DNA of 64,000 nucleotides, taken from the NCBI GenBank assembly GCA_028289125.1, contig JAQGGZ010000006.1, forward strand, positions 1 to 64,000, in the 5' to 3' direction. This document shows positions 47,697 to 62,976 of this stretch, piece after piece. Source of the stretch: Candidatus Saccharimonadota bacterium. Lineage in GTDB: Bacteria; Patescibacteriota; Saccharimonadia; Saccharimonadales; UBA4665. Position 1 is the stretch's first letter. The number at the start of each line of letters is the position of its first letter. Position numbers and translations under genes: made by a program. The notes beneath the pieces are model-generated. The model searched no databases. It saw nothing but the letters and a program-made list of their open reading frames with translations, and was not told the origin of the DNA.

Positions 47697-48229
47697 ACGG
47701 AAATATAATCAATCAGCAAGCGGATGCTGTTCGCCAGATTTTCTTTGGCGGTCTCACCATCTTTCAGACGGCGCAGGAGCTCATTCGGGTTTAGCCATTC
47801 GGCTCCGCTGAAATCATCGGCGCTATAGTTGGCCGGCGCTTCGTCCATGTAAATGATGTAATCCACGGTGACGTAGGGGATGGCGCCCGGTTTCGGGTAA
47901 GTCTTACCGATTTCGCTGAACATGTCGGGTTCGACAGATAAATTCAGTTCCTCCTCGAAGCCTCGTACGATAGCTTCCAGGTAAGTCTCGCCCGAGGCGA
48001 CGTGCTCGGCGGCGCTGAAGTCCAGTCCGTTTGGGGCAATCCGTTTGCTGGCGATACGGCGGGGAATCCAGACCTCACCTTTCTTGTTGACGATCAAGGC
48101 GTGGGCAGCGCGGACGTAGCGGCCGCCGTCACGAGGCAGGTCAAACGCTTCCTCGTGGGTGATGGTGCCGATGACGGTATCTTCGGCGTCGACGAGGTCG
48201 AGGATCTCTTCGCTATAGTCGGTTGTCAT
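47693..48229 (-). CDS. NUDIX hydrolase (YfcD/IDI-like)
   Basis: A 178-residue protein of the NUDIX branch that includes isopentenyl-diphosphate isomerase and YfcD: VDAEDTVIGTITHEEAF, IPRRIASKRIAPNGLDF. The NUDIX box is GETYLEAIVRGFEEELN, with Gly where the first Glu of REUXEE is expected. The isomerase Cys motif is absent, so a hydrolase is more likely. It starts within the end of the P-type ATPase gene. Confidence 0.75.
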   Translation of the reverse strand: MTTDYSEEILDLVDAEDTVIGTITHEEAFDLPRDGGRYVRAAHALIVNKKGEVWIPRRIASKRIAPNGLDFSAAEHVASGETYLEAIVRGFEEELNLSVEPDMFSEIGKTYPKPGAIPYVTVDYIIYMDEAPANYSADDFSGAEWLNPNELLRRLKDGETAKENLANSIRLLIDYISV

Positions 48230-50058
48230 AGTTTGGACCCATGGGCGCGCAAGGCATTGAAGATGACGACGATATCGACGACTTCTTGAATCAGAGCGCC
48301 GTACAACGGTTGGAAACGGCCGGTGGCAAAGATGAGCATCAGGGCGATACTCAGACCGATGCCGATCAGGATGCTTTGCTGGGCGATACGGAACGTTCGG
48401 CGGGCGATAGCAAAAGCATCGGCGACGCGACTGATGTCATCCTGCATGATGACGACATCAGCGGATTCGCTGGCGGCCGTCGAACCCTTGGCACCGAGCG
48501 CAATACCGACTTCGGCGGCTGTTAGCACGGGTGCGTCATTCACGCCATCACCGACGAAGGCGACAGGACGTTCCTTGATGGCGTCGATGGCGTGCAGCTT
48601 ATCGGCCGGCAACGCTTCTGCCGTTACGTCACTGATGCCGAGTTGTTTGGCGATTTTTTTGGCTGTGGTCTGGTTGTCGCCGGTCACCATCAGGAACTTG
48701 CGGATGCCGAAGCCGTTCAGCCGCTGTAGGGTGGCCTTGCTGTTGTCGCGGACCTCATCATTGAAACTGATGATGCCAGCCAGCTTGTGGTCGATGGCGA
48801 CGAAGGCGGCGGTCTGCTGAACTTTCTTGATGGAAAAAGTTGGCGGAACGATGATCTCGTACTCGTCGATCATGCCGAGACGGCCGACCATGATTTGCTT
48901 GCCGCCGACCTGCGCTTGGACACCATGACCAGGAAGTTCTTTGACATGCTTGGCCTTTGTGAGCTTGATTTTCTGCTGTATCGCCTTGTTAGTGATGGCG
49001 GTCGCCAGGACATGGTTGGAGCTTTGCTCGACGGTGGCGGCAGCACTGAGGACATCAACTTTTTTGAACCCGCTGTACGTCGTGATGCCGTCGACTTCCG
49101 GCGTTCCGTGGGTCAGTGTGCCGGTCTTGTCAAAAGCGATCGTGCGGACCGCCGCCAGGCGCTCGAGGGCCGAACCGTTCTTGACGATGATGCCGTTCCT
49201 GGCTGCCCGGCTGATGCCGGAGATGACGGCGATAGGAGCCGCCAAGATCAGCGGGCAGGGTGTGGCTACGACCAGCACTTCTAGAAATCGCTCAGATTCA
49301 CCGCTGATAAGCCAGGCTCCCCCGGCGATGACGAACGCAATGATAGTGAACGGCACGCTGTAGCGGTCAGCTAAACGCACGAAAGGCGATTGGTTATCAG
49401 CGGCTTTAACTAGTTTGATGATCTGCTGATATTGGCTGTCGGCGGCCGAATGGATGGCTTTGGCGGTAATGGCGCCGTCGAGGTTGACGGTACCACTTAA
49501 CAGCTTGTCGCCTGGCTTTTTCAGCTGTGGCAGGCTTTCGCCGGTTAGGCTGGCTTCGTCGACACTGGTCGTGCCTTCGATCACTTCGCAGTCGACCGGT
49601 ACGACTTCACCCGGGCGAACTTCGATCGTGTCAGCTACTTTGACTTCTTTGACGGTGACATCGACAAAGGATTTCTTGCGTAGGACATGGGCTTTTTGGG
49701 GCGCTCGGGAGAGGAGGGCATCCAGCTCGGACTTTGCCCGGTGCTCGGCGTAATCTTCCAGCGATTCGCCGCCGGTCAACATCAGGACGATGACGATCGC
49801 GGCCCAGTACTCGCCCATGACGAGTGCCGTGATGATGGCGGTGGCTGCCAAAATGTCGACCCCATATTTGCCATTACGCAAATCCTCGACCATACCCCAG
49901 AGCAGCGGAATCAGCACGACGCTGGCGACGATGATCAGGATTATATGAGCGGCCTTATCGAAACCAGCCAAATCCAAGCCCAGCGCTACTGCTGACGAAA
50001 GTAACGCAAAACAAAATTCTTTATACCGACGGACAAACCGTAGCAATCGTTTCATCAC
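48226..50058 (-). CDS. P1B-type heavy-metal-transporting ATPase
   Basis: A 610-residue cation pump: VATPCPLILAAPIAVISG (CPx-type metal site, here Cys-Pro-Leu, as in Zn/Cd/Co pumps), FDKTGTLTHG phosphorylation loop, VTGDNQTTAKKIA and FVGDGVNDAPVL. The N-terminal metal-binding HMA domain is absent. AAGGAG precedes the ATG. Together with the downstream NUDIX gene it forms a two-gene operon. Confidence 0.93.
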   Translation of the reverse strand: MMKRLLRFVRRYKEFCFALLSSAVALGLDLAGFDKAAHIILIIVASVVLIPLLWGMVEDLRNGKYGVDILAATAIITALVMGEYWAAIVIVLMLTGGESLEDYAEHRAKSELDALLSRAPQKAHVLRKKSFVDVTVKEVKVADTIEVRPGEVVPVDCEVIEGTTSVDEASLTGESLPQLKKPGDKLLSGTVNLDGAITAKAIHSAADSQYQQIIKLVKAADNQSPFVRLADRYSVPFTIIAFVIAGGAWLISGESERFLEVLVVATPCPLILAAPIAVISGISRAARNGIIVKNGSALERLAAVRTIAFDKTGTLTHGTPEVDGITTYSGFKKVDVLSAAATVEQSSNHVLATAITNKAIQQKIKLTKAKHVKELPGHGVQAQVGGKQIMVGRLGMIDEYEIIVPPTFSIKKVQQTAAFVAIDHKLAGIISFNDEVRDNSKATLQRLNGFGIRKFLMVTGDNQTTAKKIAKQLGISDVTAEALPADKLHAIDAIKERPVAFVGDGVNDAPVLTAAEVGIALGAKGSTAASESADVVIMQDDISRVADAFAIARRTFRIAQQSILIGIGLSIALMLIFATGRFQPLYGALIQEVVDIVVIFNALRAHGSKL

Positions 50059-50107: not shown

Positions 50108-50809
50108 TCACGACTGCAAGAATCGGCAGATAGTCTCGACGTAAGCCTGATTCGCGCCATTCTTGAAAAGATCATCGTTCAGACTGTGCTCCAGATCGGG
50201 AGCCAGGAATTTCTGAGCGTGGAAAGCCTCGATATACGAATCGCTCGCTGTCGCCGGAACGAGGTCGTCGCGTCCGTGCACCATCACAAGCGTCGGCGGA
50301 GGGGCCTTATGGTCTTGTAATAGCGGATTATCACGGAGGGCTCCGGTGTCGTGACGGTAGACGTTACGGGTCCAGCCGACATCGATTTCGCCCCACAAAG
50401 TATAAAAATCTTCTGGTTGATAGATGGCCGGTGCGCAGAGTACCAGATGCTGAACCTGCCGTTGCTGACTCAAAGTGGCCGCCAGGTAACTCCCATAACT
50501 TGAACCCATGAGGCTGATCGAAGCGTTTGGGCGCTCCTTGCGCAGCTGGTCATACACGTTCACGGCTTCAAGCAGGTGCTGTGCCGGACGTGTGTCATCC
50601 AGATGGAACGGACTGTCGCCGTGTCCGCTGTAATCGAAACAGACGATGCTGAGACCGGTTTGGTCAGCGATCTTCGTCAGCATTTCACGGTAATGCGTGC
50701 GGCTCGCCGTCCAGCCGATCAGGAAGATGAGAATACGTTCGGAGTCGCGCGGATACCAGTCCGCTGCCAGTGAGTAACCGGGGCAGTCGAACGTAACCTG
50801 CTCAATCAA
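50108..50809 (-). CDS. Alpha/beta hydrolase
   Basis: A 233-residue hydrolase: nucleophile elbow LMGSSYGSYLA, acid in VHGRDDLVPA, His in DLEHSLND. A conserved FDYSGHGDS oxyanion segment is present. Substrate unknown. It overlaps the upstream DUF4239-like gene by 8 nt, so the two are cotranscribed. Confidence 0.82.
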   Translation of the reverse strand: MIEQVTFDCPGYSLAADWYPRDSERILIFLIGWTASRTHYREMLTKIADQTGLSIVCFDYSGHGDSPFHLDDTRPAQHLLEAVNVYDQLRKERPNASISLMGSSYGSYLAATLSQQRQVQHLVLCAPAIYQPEDFYTLWGEIDVGWTRNVYRHDTGALRDNPLLQDHKAPPPTLVMVHGRDDLVPATASDSYIEAFHAQKFLAPDLEHSLNDDLFKNGANQAYVETICRFLQS

Positions 50810-51527
50810 TGCTGTAGTACCGTGTCTGCAACAGACGTTGATATGGTTTCCAGGCGTCGTGAGCCCGCTTGTGGGTCAGGGTGCTAAGCTTGACGACGAT
50901 TACGACGAGCATCGTCAGGCCGGCGGCGAGCAGACCGGCGATTATACGGTAAATCACCTCGTCACCCGTTTTAATGGTCAATATGAAACCAGTGGTGATG
51001 CCATACAGGACCAGCATGATTATCCATTCATGGCTGAAAATCTTGTTGGCGAGCAACATTGAGAACTGGGTGCGGTTTTGCTGGTTCTTCACGAGCTTTT
51101 CAAGCAATGATTTTATTTCAGCTTCATTGTCCCCTGAGTAGCTGACGCAGAAACCGATAAGGCTTTCATACTGCTTTTCGCCTTGGCCGGGCCGGCGCTG
51201 CTTCGAGCAAGTCTTCAGGTAGTCATCGAATGCGGTCTGCAGGCCGTTGCGTAATTCGGTCGGTAAGTTCTTCAGACTTAATGCCATTTCAAAGATGGCG
51301 TTCGCTTCGCTGCGGGCGGTCCGATGCAGATCATCGATGCGGGCTTTCTGTGAAGTCAGAATCGGGGCGAGGTAAAAACCGTATAAGAACGAGTTGACCG
51401 AGAACAGCGTCAGCGCGCCACTGCTGAACGTAGTTTTAGGCAGTACGAAGACTAGTACCAGGAACAGCAATAGGAAGAACATAAAATAAGTGGTAAGCCG
51501 GATACGGATAAGGAAGAATTGGCGCAT
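50802..51527 (-). CDS. Bestrophin-like (DUF4239-type) membrane protein
   Basis: A 241-residue protein with two N-terminal and two C-terminal membrane helices enclosing a cytoplasmic helical domain (about residues 55-165), the arrangement of DUF4239. TTATAC ends 6 nt before the ATG, a likely leaderless start. Confidence 0.68.
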   Translation of the reverse strand: MRQFFLIRIRLTTYFMFFLLLFLVLVFVLPKTTFSSGALTLFSVNSFLYGFYLAPILTSQKARIDDLHRTARSEANAIFEMALSLKNLPTELRNGLQTAFDDYLKTCSKQRRPGQGEKQYESLIGFCVSYSGDNEAEIKSLLEKLVKNQQNRTQFSMLLANKIFSHEWIIMLVLYGITTGFILTIKTGDEVIYRIIAGLLAAGLTMLVVIVVKLSTLTHKRAHDAWKPYQRLLQTRYYSID

Positions 51528-51566
51528 TACTACGTATAATAAAGCACAACCATAAAATATGACAAA

Positions 51567-52313
51567 TTACTTCACTGCCAAGAACGCCAGCATGCGTGCC
51601 AAATCACGTGGGCGGGACAGGAACGGTGAATGGCCGCCGGGTAAGATATAGGGATCGACGCCCAGGAACTCGCGTGCGGCCAATCTGGACCAATCCGGAC
51701 GCACCATCCGATCTTCGGTACAGACGATGTAATCCTGGGGGATGCGCGGCCAGCGGTCAAGCGTCGGTTCAACAACCGGCCGACGTTGTGGGCGGAGATG
51801 ACGGATAGCCTCCACGACCAGCTTGTGATCGGATACGTCATGATAAAGGAACTGGACAGCCCGGCTCCGGTCAAACTCGGTCATATCCGGGCCGAGATCG
51901 GGTCGCCTGACAATCGCTGCCCGGGAGGCAGGCGAATGACGGGGTATCGTCGTATGATGCGCTTCCAACGGACCGAAAGCCTGCAAAGTCTGCGGCTCAA
52001 ATGAGGCAGCTAAGAATATCATCTGTCGGAATGGCCCTTCGCCCGTCCGCGGATCATTGAGGAGATTCACGGCCCGTGGTCCGTAGTTGCCGGCGCGAGA
52101 GTGAAATATGCCGACCAGGTTGTCACGGCCGGCTAAGGAGTCAGCTACGGCCTGCCCGTAGTCGTTCAAATCTTTGGTAGGGTCATCAACGGGTACGTCC
52201 ATCGCCACGGAGTCATAGCCCAGCTCATCAAGCTCAGTTTGCAACCGCTGCATGCACCAGGCGTCATGCCAGGGTCCATGCACTAAAGCGAATGTTGGCG
52301 GACGATCACGCAT
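51567..52313 (-). CDS. Alpha/beta hydrolase (esterase-like)
   Basis: About 248 residues. ALVHGPWHDAW (oxyanion region), FHSRAGNYGPR (nucleophile Ser) and PGGHSPFLSRP (His) follow the esterase/hydroxynitrile lyase-like pattern. The ATG at 52313 is chosen because TATCAT (52325-52320) ends 6 nt before it; a longer in-frame start at 52349 precedes the promoter. Confidence 0.8.
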   Translation of the reverse strand: MRDRPPTFALVHGPWHDAWCMQRLQTELDELGYDSVAMDVPVDDPTKDLNDYGQAVADSLAGRDNLVGIFHSRAGNYGPRAVNLLNDPRTGEGPFRQMIFLAASFEPQTLQAFGPLEAHHTTIPRHSPASRAAIVRRPDLGPDMTEFDRSRAVQFLYHDVSDHKLVVEAIRHLRPQRRPVVEPTLDRWPRIPQDYIVCTEDRMVRPDWSRLAAREFLGVDPYILPGGHSPFLSRPRDLARMLAFLAVK

Positions 52314-52364
52314 ATGTCTATGATATAAACCAGACAGGTAAAAAATCAAATAAGATTATCGATG

Positions 52365-52390
52365 TGAAACTTTTAGGTAATTTGAACGTA
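52365..52390 (+). promoter_or_regulatory. ECF-type promoter, probably autoregulatory
   Basis: TGAAAC (52365-52370), 16 nt, CGTA (52387-52390): the GAAC-type -35 and CGT-type -10 of ECF sigma promoters, directly upstream of an ECF sigma gene. A TATAGT (52389-52394) 5 nt before the ATG could be an alternative housekeeping -10. Confidence 0.55.
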
Positions 52391-52399
52391 TAGTTAGAT

Positions 52400-52918
52400 A
52401 TGATGCAAGAAGCAGCTATCATCCAAGCCGTCATCGAAGGCAAGAATGGCTACGCCGAGCTGGTGGAGCGCTACCATGTCGGGCTGATAATTCATTGCGA
52501 ACGGCTCGTCGGTGACCGTACCGACGCTGAAGACGTCGCGCAAGAGGCGTTCGTCAAAGCTTACTTGAATCTCAAAAATTATGATGCTGACAAAGCCCGT
52601 TTTTCGACTTGGTTGTATAAGATCGCGACTAATCTAGCCATTGACTATCTGCGTAAGGAACGTCGCATCAGTCACGAAGCCGATGTCGAAACGCTGGCAG
52701 AGCTGTCCATGCCGACCCAGGTAGAATTGGCCGAGCGCAATGAACTACGGGCGATCGTGGCCGCGCTTGAGCCGCCGGCGTACAAACAGGTCATCGAAGG
52801 TTATTACTGGCAAGGCAAAAGCTACCAAGAGCTGGCAGAGGAGTTACGAGTGCCGCTCAACACGGTGCGGACTTGGATACACCGCGCCAAAGAGCAACTT
52901 AAGGAGCAGTTAGTATGA
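52400..52918 (+). CDS. ECF-family RNA polymerase sigma factor
   Basis: A 172-residue group 4 sigma factor: region 2 (DRTDAEDVAQEAFVKAYLNL, FSTWLYKIATNLAID) and region 4 (GYYWQGKSYQELAEELRV, LNTVRTWIHRAKEQL). Region 3 is absent, as expected. It overlaps the next gene by 4 nt (ATGA), the usual coupling of an ECF sigma with its regulator. Confidence 0.95.
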   Translation: MMQEAAIIQAVIEGKNGYAELVERYHVGLIIHCERLVGDRTDAEDVAQEAFVKAYLNLKNYDADKARFSTWLYKIATNLAIDYLRKERRISHEADVETLAELSMPTQVELAERNELRAIVAALEPPAYKQVIEGYYWQGKSYQELAEELRVPLNTVRTWIHRAKEQLKEQLV

Positions 52919-54357
52919 AGCCGACAATCGATCAACGCCTGGATGATGCCCGGCCTGAAAACACCCGAGGTGATGATGTTTTTGTCGCCCGCACCATGGA
53001 AGCGGTCGGTCGGGCAGCGACGTCTGAAACTTTTTCGAAAGCTGTGCGTACTACAAGCACAACCAAATCAGGAGCTTTCCGTATGAAATTATCAAGTTAT
53101 AAGAGACACTTACTCGCGTTACCGCGACTCGCATTTATCGCTATCATCCTCGGTACGACGGGTACCGTAGGTGCGGCCGCGTACGCGACGTACCAGTGGG
53201 TCGTGCCGAATGCCACGGTCACAGACGTTAATCAGAATAATGACGACAACCGCAGACAATACACCGTCAACGGTCAGTGCGGCCAGTACTATTCGGGTCA
53301 GGATCTGAAGTATGAGATTGCCCAGAACTCGGGGTTATCCGATGACGATGCGCGCAAGGTGCTGCAGAATACTTGTATCTATGACGCCCTCGGTTCATTC
53401 ATCGAAACCCGCTTCGTCAGCGACAACGACGCTAAAAGCATGGCCCGGAAAAAGGTAGGCGATACCGTCACGATGTACACGCACGACAATATCTTTCCTG
53501 GCAACCCGAACGCTAATCCGATTTTTGGGCTGACGACCGGTTATGTGACCGACATATCACCTAAGAGCATCACGATCACTCTGACGTTATATCGGGTTGA
53601 TAACTCATTCGACTATAAATCGGGCAGACCGTTTGAGTATTATCCCGAAGGCAAGTCCGTCTCACGCACGATCGCAGTCGCGCCCGATGTACAGGTCTTT
53701 GAAAACGGCAAGCCCATACAACTGTCTGATGTCTCTGTCGGTTCTGTCGTTCAACTTGTAACACGGACCCAGCATCTCGTGCAGTATTACCAAGACTTAC
53801 ATGGTAATGGTCTTGGGCCGCAGACCGGTTTCGCGGTTGCGGGCATAATCAAGACCGACCTCGACCCCAAATTTGTCGGCGGCGTCGGAAGTGAGATCGG
53901 CGACCCCCAGATTGCAAACGCCGTTGCCAAGCTTGGGCCCTGCACTGAAAACGTATCGTACTACTGCGTGAACGTACCGAACCAGATCCTCGGCGTGGTC
54001 TATACGACGGCGGACGAAACCTCTCAAGCCAATGATAAATATCGCCGGACCGATGTGACAAACAACGGGCCAGTGAAGTTCCATCAGTTACACGGTCGTA
54101 TCAAGTCAATTGACGGTACGAAGGTGACTCTTCAGGCCCGAGGTAGCACCAAGACTTTCACGGTGGATCTGCCGTACGATGCCATATCTCAGTACAATGG
54201 TGCGGGCAACGCCCTCAAGGTGAACGTCGGTGACCTGATGGAAGTAGACTACTTGCAAACGCCCGATGAAGACCATTTGAAAGTCAAATCATCAGACCTG
54301 ATCATGTTCGGACTTTTGGAGCAGACGCAAGTGGATGGATCTGTGGCGAAGTACTGA
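52915..54357 (+). CDS. Membrane-anchored partner of the ECF sigma factor (putative anti-sigma)
   Basis: A 480-residue protein: about 55 cytoplasmic residues, one membrane helix (about residues 63-85, LAFIAIILGTTGTVGAAAYA) and a large extracytoplasmic domain of about 390 residues with beta-rich segments and several Cys (GQCGQYYSG, NTCIYDA, GPCTENVSYYC). I do not recognise the outer domain. Position and topology fit an anti-sigma factor; there is no ZAS zinc motif, so this is inference. Confidence 0.65.
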   Translation: MKPTIDQRLDDARPENTRGDDVFVARTMEAVGRAATSETFSKAVRTTSTTKSGAFRMKLSSYKRHLLALPRLAFIAIILGTTGTVGAAAYATYQWVVPNATVTDVNQNNDDNRRQYTVNGQCGQYYSGQDLKYEIAQNSGLSDDDARKVLQNTCIYDALGSFIETRFVSDNDAKSMARKKVGDTVTMYTHDNIFPGNPNANPIFGLTTGYVTDISPKSITITLTLYRVDNSFDYKSGRPFEYYPEGKSVSRTIAVAPDVQVFENGKPIQLSDVSVGSVVQLVTRTQHLVQYYQDLHGNGLGPQTGFAVAGIIKTDLDPKFVGGVGSEIGDPQIANAVAKLGPCTENVSYYCVNVPNQILGVVYTTADETSQANDKYRRTDVTNNGPVKFHQLHGRIKSIDGTKVTLQARGSTKTFTVDLPYDAISQYNGAGNALKVNVGDLMEVDYLQTPDEDHLKVKSSDLIMFGLLEQTQVDGSVAKY

Positions 54358-54457
54358 TATTAGTATAAACGTGTACACTCCTGGCTATACCTAACACTAT
54401 CGCTCTTTTAGGATCGAGTGGTCATATTAGTTCTGAGTAAGACGTCGCACCTATCGA

Positions 54458-55435
54458 TTATTGATGGCGTGACTGAAGGTACTCCAGCAGCCCGTGATGT
54501 AAGTGGTGCGCGCCGTCCCAAATTACTAGGTTGATGTCCTGAGGCAAATCCGTAGGGTCCTCGTCCCGAAAATCAATTGAACGTACTTCTGGCGGCAGAG
54601 CCTGGCTCATGTGCCTGTCCGTCCCGCCATTCGTAAGCGAGAATTTATCACCCCAGACTTCAAGTTCGTCAGGATTGAGCAAGTCAGCCGGCGTCAGGCC
54701 GATAGTTTTGAGCACGGTTTGGTCAGAGAGGACGGCCTGGATAGATGTAGTCTTTGATACGCCTTCCACGGCGAAATCCAAGGCAAAATTGCCTCCGAAA
54801 TGAGGTGTGATCGGTATGTCTGCCTCAGTGAATAACTGTTCGGCCCGCAGCTTGATAGCTGTGCGCAGATCGTACTTGCCGTTCGTGGCCGGAACATCAA
54901 AATTGAGGTCACGCAGTTGTTCCTCCGTAAGCTCAGTGCCGTTCACGACTTCCATGGTTATCTGAGGCCCTCGATCATCAAGCATGATATCTTGAGGTCT
55001 ATGCCCGATTTTGCGCCAGAACTCAGTTTTTGGCTGGGCAGGGTGTGGACGTAGTCCGAATTCTTGTACTAACTGCCCGATTATCTCGCGCCACTGGCGT
55101 TTCATCTCAGTATCGAAGGTGTCTTCATAAACGCTGTAGAACGGCGTGTCACGAAGCTTACCGTCGTCAGTGAATCCCCATACTTCCGCGCCGCTGCAGT
55201 GGCTGATCAAAATGCTGTTTCTTACGCGGGCGGGCATCATATCTGTGATACTTGCCAGCACGCGCTTCAGGCTCCCGCCGGTCACCATAAAGAGTTTTCC
55301 GCCGCTCTCAAGGAAAGAAGCGAGCTCATCTATCATTGCGGATTCGGCGGGCGTGTAGACTTCGGCGATGGTTTCATCGACATCCGAAAATACCAGGCGT
55401 AACTGATTGTTCCAGTGAATAGTAGGACCGCTCAT
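54458..55435 (-). CDS. HAD-superfamily hydrolase (type IIB-like)
   Basis: A 325-residue phosphatase: motif I VFSDVDETIAEV (DxDxT), motif II VTGGSLKRV, a large cap domain, and a C-terminal VWGDKFSLTNGGTDRHM with the metal-binding Asp. It resembles phosphomannomutase/Cof-type sugar phosphatases. TATACT lies 9 nt before the ATG. Substrate unknown. Confidence 0.78.
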   Translation of the reverse strand: MSGPTIHWNNQLRLVFSDVDETIAEVYTPAESAMIDELASFLESGGKLFMVTGGSLKRVLASITDMMPARVRNSILISHCSGAEVWGFTDDGKLRDTPFYSVYEDTFDTEMKRQWREIIGQLVQEFGLRPHPAQPKTEFWRKIGHRPQDIMLDDRGPQITMEVVNGTELTEEQLRDLNFDVPATNGKYDLRTAIKLRAEQLFTEADIPITPHFGGNFALDFAVEGVSKTTSIQAVLSDQTVLKTIGLTPADLLNPDELEVWGDKFSLTNGGTDRHMSQALPPEVRSIDFRDEDPTDLPQDINLVIWDGAHHLHHGLLEYLQSRHQ

Positions 55436-55506
55436 ATGTGAATCAGTATAACAAAGGTAAGGATTATGTAATGCCCATCGGTGCAGCCCTTTGCTCGGGG
55501 CAAGCT

Positions 55507-56616
55507 TTAGCCTAAGTAATTTTCTATCGACAAAGGGACCGACCCAAAAGTTATCTCTTCGAGAGTGATATCTTCCGTAGTGTAATGCCCCCCTCTACTT
55601 AATGTTACATGTGGCGTCAGGACCGGCGAATGTCTTAGGGCGCCTGTCTTAGCAATGAAGCGCGCAGGGTCAGTTACATCGCAGTCCTTTAGAAACTGAA
55701 GAAGAGCGGTATACATTTCGCGGTGAGCGGTGATCATATCCTGAGTAGGTTCAAATTCGAGCACTATGGCACTATTGCGATAACCGAAAACTGAAACCCG
55801 TGTAGGCAGTAGCGTCTGGGGCCGGTCAGGAAGGGCATCGTTCAAACGATCGATAAAAGTGACCAGATATTTGACGTACTGTGACTGATCTATGCCGGTA
55901 ACCGTATGTATCTGTTCGTACATTTCATCGATCAAACCGAAATGAAGAAGAGTCAGATGCAGTTGGCTGGGAGGCGTAAGCCGGAACCTGCCGGTGAAAT
56001 TTATAAGGTTTTGGAGATTGATTAAGCGTGCGAGCCCCGTGTCGTCAGGTGTCAGCTTGGTGTATAGCCGCCGCCTTGAAAGTCTCGGTTGCGGAGTGTT
56101 GCTGACCGGTGGAGGATTCGTAACGATGACACTGTCAAAACCTTCCTCCGGGCTCGGCAAATTCAAAGTAAGCCTGTTATGCATCCGTGCCATTGCGGGC
56201 TCGGGGACTCTTTTTTCACGAGCTTCGTTCCTCATCGAGCTGGTAGGCAGGTCGGTGTTTACGTATAGCCCGACAATCTTGAATTCTTCGAATTGACGTA
56301 TGAGGTTGATCAGTTGTCGTCTATCACGACGCCGCGCATTAGTGGCATCGACCACGATATGTTCTTTGGCCCGAAGACCTTCGCTTATCTTTTGTAAGGC
56401 TATGTCGGACACGACTGGTTCCTTCGTGTGGTCAGTCGGATTGCCCGTCAGTTCTTCGCGTATATCGTCCCTGTTGACGTACACCGCACCTATTTCTTCG
56501 GCTAAGGGTTTGAGTATCGTAGTCTTGCCGCTTCCGGGCAAACCGATACCTATGAGCGCCAAAGGCCCGGATGAGGCGTAAGCCAGCACTGTTTCCTTCC
56601 ATAAGGGTGGTTTCAT
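55507..56616 (-). CDS. Polynucleotide-kinase-like / 2H-phosphoesterase fusion
   Basis: 369 residues in two modules. Residues 20-165 form a P-loop kinase with GIGLPGSGKTT, VNRDDIREELTG and VVDATNARRRDRR, as in Pnkp and tRNA-ligase kinases. Residues about 185-369 form a 2H phosphoesterase with HLT (220-222) and HVT (336-338). A 5'-kinase joined to a 2',3'-cyclic phosphodiesterase is the end-healing pair of fungal Trl1 tRNA ligase. No ligase domain is present. The gene lies directly downstream of tRNA-His on the same strand, behind its terminator. RNA repair is an inference. Confidence 0.78.
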   Translation of the reverse strand: MKPPLWKETVLAYASSGPLALIGIGLPGSGKTTILKPLAEEIGAVYVNRDDIREELTGNPTDHTKEPVVSDIALQKISEGLRAKEHIVVDATNARRRDRRQLINLIRQFEEFKIVGLYVNTDLPTSSMRNEAREKRVPEPAMARMHNRLTLNLPSPEEGFDSVIVTNPPPVSNTPQPRLSRRRLYTKLTPDDTGLARLINLQNLINFTGRFRLTPPSQLHLTLLHFGLIDEMYEQIHTVTGIDQSQYVKYLVTFIDRLNDALPDRPQTLLPTRVSVFGYRNSAIVLEFEPTQDMITAHREMYTALLQFLKDCDVTDPARFIAKTGALRHSPVLTPHVTLSRGGHYTTEDITLEEITFGSVPLSIENYLG

Positions 56617-56677
56617 TACCTGCTTACTTATACCGTAAGCCCGAATTTACGTATGTGAAGTATCGGATATACAATTC

Positions 56678-56724
56678 GCCCCAAATAAAAAAGGCCACAC
56701 AAGGTGACCTTTTTTATTTGGGGC
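56678..56724 (-). terminator. Terminator fused to the tRNA-His 3' end
   Basis: Perfect 17-bp inverted repeat (56678-56694 with 56708-56724), A-tract and T-tract arms, with further partial pairing in the loop. On the minus strand the stem begins inside the acceptor end and includes C73 and CCA of tRNA-His. Confidence 0.9.
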
Positions 56725-56796
56725 GAATGATGGGGCTCGAACCCACGGCCTCCGGAGCCACAATCCAGCGCTCTAACCTACTGAGCTACATCCGCC
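56719..56796 (-). tRNA. tRNA-His(GTG)
   Basis: Acceptor GCGGATG/CATTCGC with the extra G-1 opposite C73, the tRNA-His identity element. Anticodon loop TTGTGGC (GTG); CCA encoded. Confidence 0.95.
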
Positions 56797-58210: not shown

Positions 58211-58684
58211 CTATAAAGCAATCTTAGCTAATACCCTTGTCATAGCATCATCTGCGTCTGAAGTCTTTGAAGCAATAGATAGACCCTCAACCGTTAAAAT
58301 GTCACCTGAGTGTACTCGCCGTGTTCCATAAGCAGAGATGTGCGGGCTATAACCATCGTTTTGAAAAAGCGGGTTTTTGAACGTCGCGTTATTTTCGGTA
58401 AGCGTTTTCATAATAAGGGAGTGCAAATGCAACAAAGCTGGATTTAGTTCTATCTCAGTGACAAGTATATTTTTGTCAGGTCCGTAGTATGCATCTTTCG
58501 TTGCCTTAATCTCAAACTGAGCCTGTTGAAGTAAGGCTTGTGATAATAGGCTAGTAAGTTCGTCCGTACCGAGTTCTATCTGAAATGAGTCTATATGCGT
58601 CAAGTGGAGTGGTATGTTATCCTGCGAGAACTCAAAACCTACTTCTAGGTCTTCAAAAATCGTGGCTATACCGTACTTACCCAT
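58211..58684 (-). CDS. 2H phosphoesterase (2'-5' RNA ligase-like)
   Basis: A 157-residue stand-alone 2H protein: HLT at residues 27-29 and HIS at about 115-117 provide the two catalytic His/Thr(Ser) pairs. Members act on 2',3'-cyclic or 2'-5' RNA phosphates. It follows the transporter gene by 3 nt on the same strand, so no separate promoter is needed. Confidence 0.82.
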   Translation of the reverse strand: MGKYGIATIFEDLEVGFEFSQDNIPLHLTHIDSFQIELGTDELTSLLSQALLQQAQFEIKATKDAYYGPDKNILVTEIELNPALLHLHSLIMKTLTENNATFKNPLFQNDGYSPHISAYGTRRVHSGDILTVEGLSIASKTSDADDAMTRVLAKIAL

Positions 58685-61452: not shown

Positions 61453-62976
61453 CTATATGTCGTTCAAGACGGTAATTCTGGCACCGAGGCTGTTGAGTCG
61501 TTCGGCCAGATCTTCGTAACCACGCTGGATGGTATAAATATTGCGGAGCGTGCTGACGCCGTTAGCGGCGAGCATGCCGATTAGCAGCAGAGAAGCCGGG
61601 CGAAGGGCTGGCGGGCAGACGACGTCGGCCGAGGTGAACTTGGTCGGACCGGTAATGTAGATGCGGTGCGGGTCGGCCAGTTCGACATTAGCACCGATCT
61701 TGGTCATTTCAGTGTAATAGATGGCACGGTTCTCGTACATCCAGTCGTGGATCATGCTGCGGCCGATGATGGTGCAGGCGATCGGTACGAAATACGGCAG
61801 GTTGTCGGCGTTTAAGCCAGGGTAGGGCAGTGAGTGGAGCTTGTCGGCCAGGGCGTGCAGTTTGCCATTGTGCTTCTGAATCGTGATATCGACGAGGTCG
61901 GTGCGCTTGTTTTCGGCTTTGTAGCGCTCGGACATTTCAAAATCAAGCCCCATCTTTTTGAGCTTCAGCATCTCGATAGTCATGAAATCGATCGGAACAC
62001 GCTGGACGGTAATCGATGAATTTGTTGTGACGGCAGCCGACACGAAGAACATGGCCTCGATCGGGTCTTCACTTGGAGCGAAAGTAACGTTCTTCTTGAT
62101 TTCGGCCACGCCTTTGATGCGGATGGTGCTGGAGCCGATGCCCTCGATCTCGACGCCTAATTTCTGCAAGAAGTAACAAAGGTCCTGGACCATATAATTG
62201 GCGCTGGCAAACTGTAAAATCGTTTCCTCAGGTGTGCGGGCGGCGGCCAGTAAGGCGTTTTCTGTAACGGTGTCGCCGACCTCATACAAGGCGACGCGGC
62301 CGGCTGGTTTCTTGTCAACGGTAACATTGTAGTTGCCGGTCGTGGCCACGATGTTGACACCGAATTCCTCCAGCGCGTACAAATGCGGGGTGACCGTGCG
62401 GGTGCCGAGCTTACAGCCACCGGCGTAAGGAATCTTGAATTCTGCGTAGTCGTGCAACAGGGAACCGATCAGCATCAGGACGCTACGGGTCTTGCGTGCG
62501 GCCTTGCCGTTGATTTTTTTCAGGTTCAGTTCGGCTGGGCGGCGGATTTCGAGATCGTTGCCAGGCAGCCATTTGACCTGGACGCCGAGGCTTTCGAGGA
62601 CTTCGATGATACGGTAGACCTCTTCGATGCGAGGGAAGGACTTGAACCGGGTGACGCCTTTGTTGAGCAGGCTGGCACACAGGAGGCCCACAGCCGCGTT
62701 CTTACTGGTCTTAAGGGTAATTTCACCGCTGAGTTCATGACCACCCTCGATGCGCAGGTTGGTGGCGGCAGCGCCGCTGATGCTGATCAGCTGCTTGTTC
62801 AGAACGTCGCTGATGCGGCCCAGGGTCTCGAGGCTCATGTTCTGCTTGCCATGTTCCATGCGGTTGACCGCGGATTGGCTGGTATTGAGTTTGCGGGCGA
62901 ACTCTGATTGGGTTAAGCCGCGTTCTTGTCGTATCTGAGCGATTAACTCGCCGATTTTGTCATTTGTGGTAGGCAT
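61453..62976 (-). CDS. murA: MurA-type enolpyruvyl transferase with N-terminal HTH domain
   Basis: 507 residues: an XRE/Cro helix-turn-helix (residues 1-65, LTQSEFARKLNTSQSAVNRM) followed by a full enolpyruvyl transferase fold. The catalytic Cys loop AGGCKLGTRTVTPHLYAL matches MurA, which makes UDP-GlcNAc-enolpyruvate, the first peptidoglycan step. Ordinary MurA is about 420 residues and has no DNA-binding domain. TATAAT lies 9 nt before the ATG. Confidence 0.88.
   Translation of the reverse strand: MPTTNDKIGELIAQIRQERGLTQSEFARKLNTSQSAVNRMEHGKQNMSLETLGRISDVLNKQLISISGAAATNLRIEGGHELSGEITLKTSKNAAVGLLCASLLNKGVTRFKSFPRIEEVYRIIEVLESLGVQVKWLPGNDLEIRRPAELNLKKINGKAARKTRSVLMLIGSLLHDYAEFKIPYAGGCKLGTRTVTPHLYALEEFGVNIVATTGNYNVTVDKKPAGRVALYEVGDTVTENALLAAARTPEETILQFASANYMVQDLCYFLQKLGVEIEGIGSSTIRIKGVAEIKKNVTFAPSEDPIEAMFFVSAAVTTNSSITVQRVPIDFMTIEMLKLKKMGLDFEMSERYKAENKRTDLVDITIQKHNGKLHALADKLHSLPYPGLNADNLPYFVPIACTIIGRSMIHDWMYENRAIYYTEMTKIGANVELADPHRIYITGPTKFTSADVVCPPALRPASLLLIGMLAANGVSTLRNIYTIQRGYEDLAERLNSLGARITVLNDI

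Follow-up and report, generated by a model that had tools for sequence, protein, structure and literature searches.

The window, a stretch of 64,000 nucleotides from a draft genome of Candidatus Saccharimonadota bacterium, encodes a single protein that joins a Pnkp-type polynucleotide kinase domain to a 2H phosphoesterase domain. With moderate confidence, we read this fusion as a bifunctional RNA end-healing enzyme that would phosphorylate 5'-OH ends and open 2',3'-cyclic phosphates on broken RNA. The first-pass annotation had placed a kinase and a 2H domain with both HxT motifs in one chain; Pfam, alignments and fold all agree with this (Table 1). It had also likened the protein to the healing module of Trl1 minus the ligase domain, and this composition holds: the chain combines a Pnkp-type kinase with a 2H cyclic phosphodiesterase (CPDase)-type domain. 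Pfam finds no ligase domain in it, so that it is not a Trl1-type tRNA ligase, while the order of a polynucleotide kinase (PNK) domain followed by a 2H CPDase domain is the layout of PNK/CPDase healing enzymes, the module type of the lancelet enzyme and Trl1. The full-length AlphaFold model, with 15 relatives from other genomes as input, consists of two confident domains (mean pLDDT 92.5, pTM 0.61), and pLDDT drops to 60 in linker residues 171-180.

Table 1. Features of the fusion gene and its upstream neighbourhood (window coordinates).
Feature	Position	Strand	Remarks
Kinase-2H fusion protein, 369 aa	55507..56616	(-)	single uninterrupted ORF
N-terminal Pnkp-type 5'-OH polynucleotide kinase domain (predicted activity), about residues 16-166	56119..56571	(-)	Pfam, PHROGs, PDB profile, Foldseek, alignment
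Pro-rich interdomain linker, about residues 167-182	56071..56118	(-)	low-confidence stretch of the model
C-terminal 2H phosphoesterase domain, residues 183-369, HLTL and HVTL	55510..56070	(-)	homologs, alignment, fold
tRNA-His (GTG)	56719..56795	(-)	upstream neighbour of the fusion ORF; taken to lie outside the system
Intrinsic terminator-like 25-bp palindrome after tRNA-His, reaching into the tRNA 3' end	56673..56729	(-)	stands between the tRNA and the fusion gene

In the kinase domain, Pfam AAA_33 covers residues 24-150 (9e-22), and the match to the PHROG polynucleotide kinase has an E-value of 2.7e-18. The domain carries the P-loop GLPGSGKTT, D50xxR53 (D50-I-R53), D90xT92 (DATN) and the lid motif RNxxR (R129/R133), which vary little or not at all among the five closest sequences (the fusion and four single-domain homologs) and align with the Pnkp of Clostridium thermocellum (CthPnkp). 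We take D50 and R53 to be the acceptor-site Asp and Arg, and R129 and R133 to be the lid arginines. CthPnkp, of the Pnkp-Hen1 RNA repair system, is the closest solved kinase domain both by sequence and by fold. It ranks first in a single-sequence PDB search (1.4e-6) and, with a larger lead, in a search with a profile of five close homologs (1.9e-18, 69.8 bits), where it is followed by PSTK (2.2e-12), Pnkp1 (3.6e-12), mammalian PNKP (1.4e-9) and T4 Pnk (2.5e-9). Foldseek likewise ranks it first for the model (4gp6, rmsd 2.3 A, TM 0.77 by target). Where the fusion has its 2H domain, CthPnkp carries a metallophosphoesterase and a ligase domain, and it has a Hen1 partner.

Family models are less specific. 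NCBIfam ranks PSTK (L-seryl-tRNA kinase, 1.1e-13) ahead of Pnkp (5e-10), both far under their cut-offs: the fusion scores 51 bits against 290 for the PSTK equivalog and 38 bits against 750 for the bacterial Pnkp model TIGR04075, the latter with the kinase part only, and thus is neither a PSTK equivalog nor a full-length kinase-phosphatase-ligase Pnkp. Therefore, the acceptor cannot be read from sequence alone. Pfam tRNA_lig_kinase matches under its cut-off as well (E 0.012). Taken by motifs, profile and fold rank, the domain is specifically polynucleotide-kinase-like, of the Pnkp type, with the activity predicted accordingly from sequence and model.

Relatives of the kinase in phages occur in an RNA-repair context. 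The best phage tblastn match by E-value, in vB_BcoS-136 (2e-12), is annotated as a polynucleotide kinase and is a kinase-HD fusion encoded directly after an RNA ligase gene. The top viral fold match, phage G gp264, is likewise a kinase-HD protein adjoining an annotated RNA ligase; as the alignments covered both domains, the gp264-like matches were considered as kinase-2H fusions, until translation and Pfam identified them as kinase-HD. On one viral contig (L063) the kinase is clustered with a PF09414 RNA ligase gene (7e-27) and an HD gene; another (L064) carries an HD-kinase fusion and, after it, a gene with a below-cut-off match to an RNA-ligase OB-type domain, and a third (L065) has an HD-kinase fusion, with the HD read by eye. 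In phages, kinase, phosphoesterase and ligase have been described as the standard set for healing and sealing (PMC7824862). By homology, the RNA ligase neighbours of these kinases are a functional hint toward RNA repair. The tblastn search against phages and plasmids gave matches on the kinase side only, with no fusion among the matches listed, and a 2H profile search of the viral contigs found nothing.

For the C-terminal domain, Pfam 2_5_RNA_ligase2 matches residues 215-355 below its curated cut-off, both in the whole protein (1.5e-4) and in the domain alone (2.9e-5). The same family is matched by 11 of the 13 homologs of the domain (best 6e-8), and their alignment shows no variation in either catalytic His or in the first Thr of the HxT/HxS motifs. 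Modelled alone, the domain reaches pLDDT 94.2 and pTM 0.88, and its best PDB fold matches are 2H enzymes. Given the invariant residues, the Pfam matches of the homologs and the fold matches, the 2H assignment is secure and the motifs are not due to chance; the domain has the two H-x-T/S-x motifs and the bilobed fold of the superfamily.

Structurally the domain comes nearest to TT0787, archaeal 2'-5' ligase-like proteins, a Deinococcus CPDase and E. coli LigT; these LigT/ThpR-type bacterial and archaeal CPDases (closest 1iuh, 5h7e, 5ldm), unlike the fusion, are stand-alone proteins with no kinase. CNPase is far down the list (E 0.06), and Acb1, also of the 2H superfamily, appears at a lower rank. 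Hence the likeness to Trl1 extends to composition and not to kinship of the 2H domain, which resembles LigT/ThpR and shows no particular affinity to the Trl1/CNPase type. A few Saccharibacteria and Arthrobacter/Micrococcaceae encode sequence homologs of the domain, which are stand-alone and about 190-230 aa long; those of Arthrobacter/Micrococcaceae (L044-L046, L048-L050, L052, L055-L057) are 30-38% identical to it. Their presence suggests gene exchange between Saccharibacteria and Actinobacteria, the known host phylum of Saccharibacteria. Enzymes of the 2H superfamily have several activities, such as the conversion of 2',3'-cyclic phosphates to 2'-phosphates; ligation by LigT is disputed (PMC5283653). 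A second, stand-alone 2H protein (157 aa) is encoded 1.6 kb from the fusion gene, at 58211-58684 (-), and matches 2_5_RNA_ligase2 above the cut-off (2.2e-6). Its homology with the fused 2H domain was considered and dropped, as BLASTP finds none.

The kinase-2H kind of enzyme is already known. The lancelet (Branchiostoma floridae) PNK/CPDase has the same N-terminal P-loop PNK and C-terminal 2H CPDase with no ligase domain, and both of its activities have been demonstrated (PMC5434554). It is nearer to the fusion in composition than Trl1 is. It differs in being eukaryotic and in having a known separate ligase, BfRNL (PMC3400036), whereas the bacterial variant combines a LigT-like 2H domain with the apparent absence of a ligase. 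Fungal Trl1 and plant tRNA ligases likewise have a kinase followed by a CPD domain and both healing activities, which in the fusion are predicted; Trl1 also carries a ligase domain, which the fusion lacks. In vertebrate CNPase a PNK-like domain also precedes a 2H domain. CNPase has no PNK activity (PMC5434554), while in the fusion the P-loop and acceptor-site residues are intact, and the CNPase 2H domain is, as noted above, a weak fold match. HD-Pnk and the phage kinase-HD enzymes are likewise bacterial or phage fusions of a Pnk kinase with a phosphoesterase, found beside RNA ligases, the phosphoesterase being HD where the fusion has 2H.

Searches of 198 genomes from the order and 93 from the family turned up no second kinase-2H fusion, and a rare-peptide-pattern search of genome contigs with the fusion protein returned no relative. 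The two domains occur there as separate genes. Kinase-only orthologs are present in G236 (49%, 149 aa), G222, G175 and G062, and 2H-only orthologs in G048, G062, G080 and two other genomes sampled across the phylum, the 2H genes of G048 and G062 each lying directly after an obgE-like gene. Among the relatives, only G062 has both genes, on different contigs. Encoded apart and for the most part in different genomes, the two domains must each be of use by themselves. A kinase search of the Arthrobacter genomes with the 2H gene, run with no positive control, gave no match. The separate domains in relatives, together with the LigT-like 2H structures, point to a fusion that probably arose independently of the eukaryotic enzymes. 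In two genomes of one genus (L008, L035), a conserved small protein, starting MATILNLTPHAINL and MYTIRNLMGKAVSL, respectively, and possibly of phage origin, is encoded before the kinase-only gene.

The first-pass annotation had proposed looking for an RtcB or Rnl-type ligase. Searches run family by family in the genome bearing the fusion (874 kb, 89% complete) found no RtcB, no PF09414 (Rnl-type ligase), no PF09511 (with a weak control) and no KptA. Few genomes of the family have RtcB at all (2 of 92). Repair to intact RNA, and with it a sealing step, is therefore putative; a sealing ligase may lie in the missing part of the genome or be of an unrecognised kind. The window contains no RNA-repair operon partner of the fusion. 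We also considered the fusion as a defence-system gene and rejected this, since PADLOC yields a weak P-loop match and nothing convincing.

In the mechanism that we propose, the N-terminal Pnkp-family kinase would transfer the gamma phosphate of an NTP to the 5'-OH of broken RNA, perhaps also accepting DNA 5'-OH ends, and the C-terminal 2H domain would convert the 2',3'-cyclic phosphate end most probably to a 2'-phosphate, like LigT, Trl1 and CNPase. Metal-independent RNases and ribotoxins leave 2',3'>p / 5'-OH breaks, which the two domains, acting together, would turn into 3'-OH,2'-P / 5'-P ends. If no ligase seals them, the healed ends would pass into RNA turnover or salvage. Domain identity, intact motifs, fold and the RNA-repair setting of the phage kinases are observed, whereas RNA as the substrate, the 2'-phosphate product and the cooperation of the domains are what we infer.

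A role in nucleotide salvage in the episymbiont is an unlikely explanation, in which the 2H domain would open free nucleoside 2',3'-cyclic monophosphates that come from RNA breakdown and the kinase would act on 5'-OH nucleotides, RNA polymers not being the target. Bacteria of this kind depend on salvage, the housecleaning enzymes Ham1 and NUDIX are encoded near the fusion, and the genome, 89% complete, yielded no sealing ligase. Moreover, the 2H domain resembles LigT, and the substrates of 2H enzymes include 2',3'-cyclic phosphates of free nucleotides as well as those of RNA ends (PMC5283653). However, the kinase homologs cluster with polynucleotide kinases, the phage relatives adjoin RNA ligases, and Ham1 is an old syntenic neighbour unrelated to the inserted segment that carries the fusion (see below). 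The domains might instead have been joined by chance and share no substrate, the kinase acting on DNA or RNA 5'-OH ends and the 2H domain on Appr>p, on cyclic oligonucleotides or in 2'-5' ligation. Relatives with mostly one domain in the absence of the other would fit this, as would the inclusion of Acb1 in the 2H superfamily. We nevertheless hold it to be rather improbable, because the equal pairing in eukaryotic PNK/CPDases and Trl1, and the recurrent pairing of Pnk kinases with HD, HAD and metallophosphoesterase domains in bacteria and phages, argue for a shared substrate.

That the protein is a DNA-repair 5'-end kinase with an accessory 2H domain seems very improbable. CthPnkp, the best structural match, has been solved with DNA (4mde), and mammalian PNKP, a DNA repair enzyme, scores in the profile search; but DNA ends offer no known task for a 2H CPDase, as a 2',3'-cyclic phosphate requires a 2'-OH, and the ligases in the phage contexts are RNA ligases. 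We see hardly any chance that a sequencing error joined two neighbouring genes: although the fusion is known from one draft genome only, it is a single in-frame ORF with no internal stops and a natural Pro-rich linker, codon statistics are alike in both halves (-0.043 and -0.055), and no relative was found with adjacent kinase and 2H genes for an error to join.

If both activities of the proposed healing enzyme are true, a kinase-2H healing architecture hitherto tied to eukaryotic tRNA splicing would, within the reach of our searches, have a bacterial representative, apparently by convergent fusion. This would raise the question of how ultra-small bacteria mostly lacking RtcB handle RNA breaks with 2',3'-cyclic phosphates. 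As a speculation with a small chance of being right, Patescibacteria (Saccharimonadia) may have arrived on their own at a PNK/CPDase of eukaryotic style by joining a phage-related Pnk kinase to a LigT-like CPDase common to Micrococcaceae (Actinobacteria), and may use it with an unrecognised sealing enzyme or, in the absence of sealing, on ribotoxin-cut RNA.

The position of the fusion next to tRNA-His, which lies about 100 bp upstream of it on the same strand, had been called suggestive, and this does not survive comparison with relatives. The order Ham1, tRNA-His is kept in L068, L069, L070, L072 and L073, and terminator-like hairpins, in shorter versions, follow tRNA-His in relatives too. 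In G191 and G008, a P-type ATPase is the next gene after tRNA-His and its terminator, with nothing between. In the window the ATPase is at 48226-50058, and between it and tRNA-His lie roughly 6.6 kb with further genes, among them the fusion. This extra segment (50108-56616) encodes two alpha/beta hydrolases, a Bestrophin-like protein, a HAD-like protein, a sigma-70-family factor, downstream of it a 480-aa protein with no Pfam match, and the fusion, and the codon statistics of 54.4-60.4 kb are mostly under the window norm. The neighbourhood thus looks like an insertion site. As the fusion lies in an inserted segment beyond the tRNA's own terminator, adjacency is no functional evidence, and we reject a functional link with tRNA-His given the order Ham1, tRNA-His, terminator, P-type ATPase in relatives.

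The terminator palindrome itself takes in the last tRNA-His bases (ATTCGCCCC...GGGGCGAAT), and as an RNA fold (z = -5.8) it competes with the tRNA acceptor stem. Elsewhere in the window, 61453-62976 (-) encodes a MurA/EPSP-synthase-type protein (EPSP_synthase, 1.1e-45) with an N-terminal Cro/C1 helix-turn-helix (HTH_3, 5.4e-14), possibly a self-regulating cell-wall enzyme.
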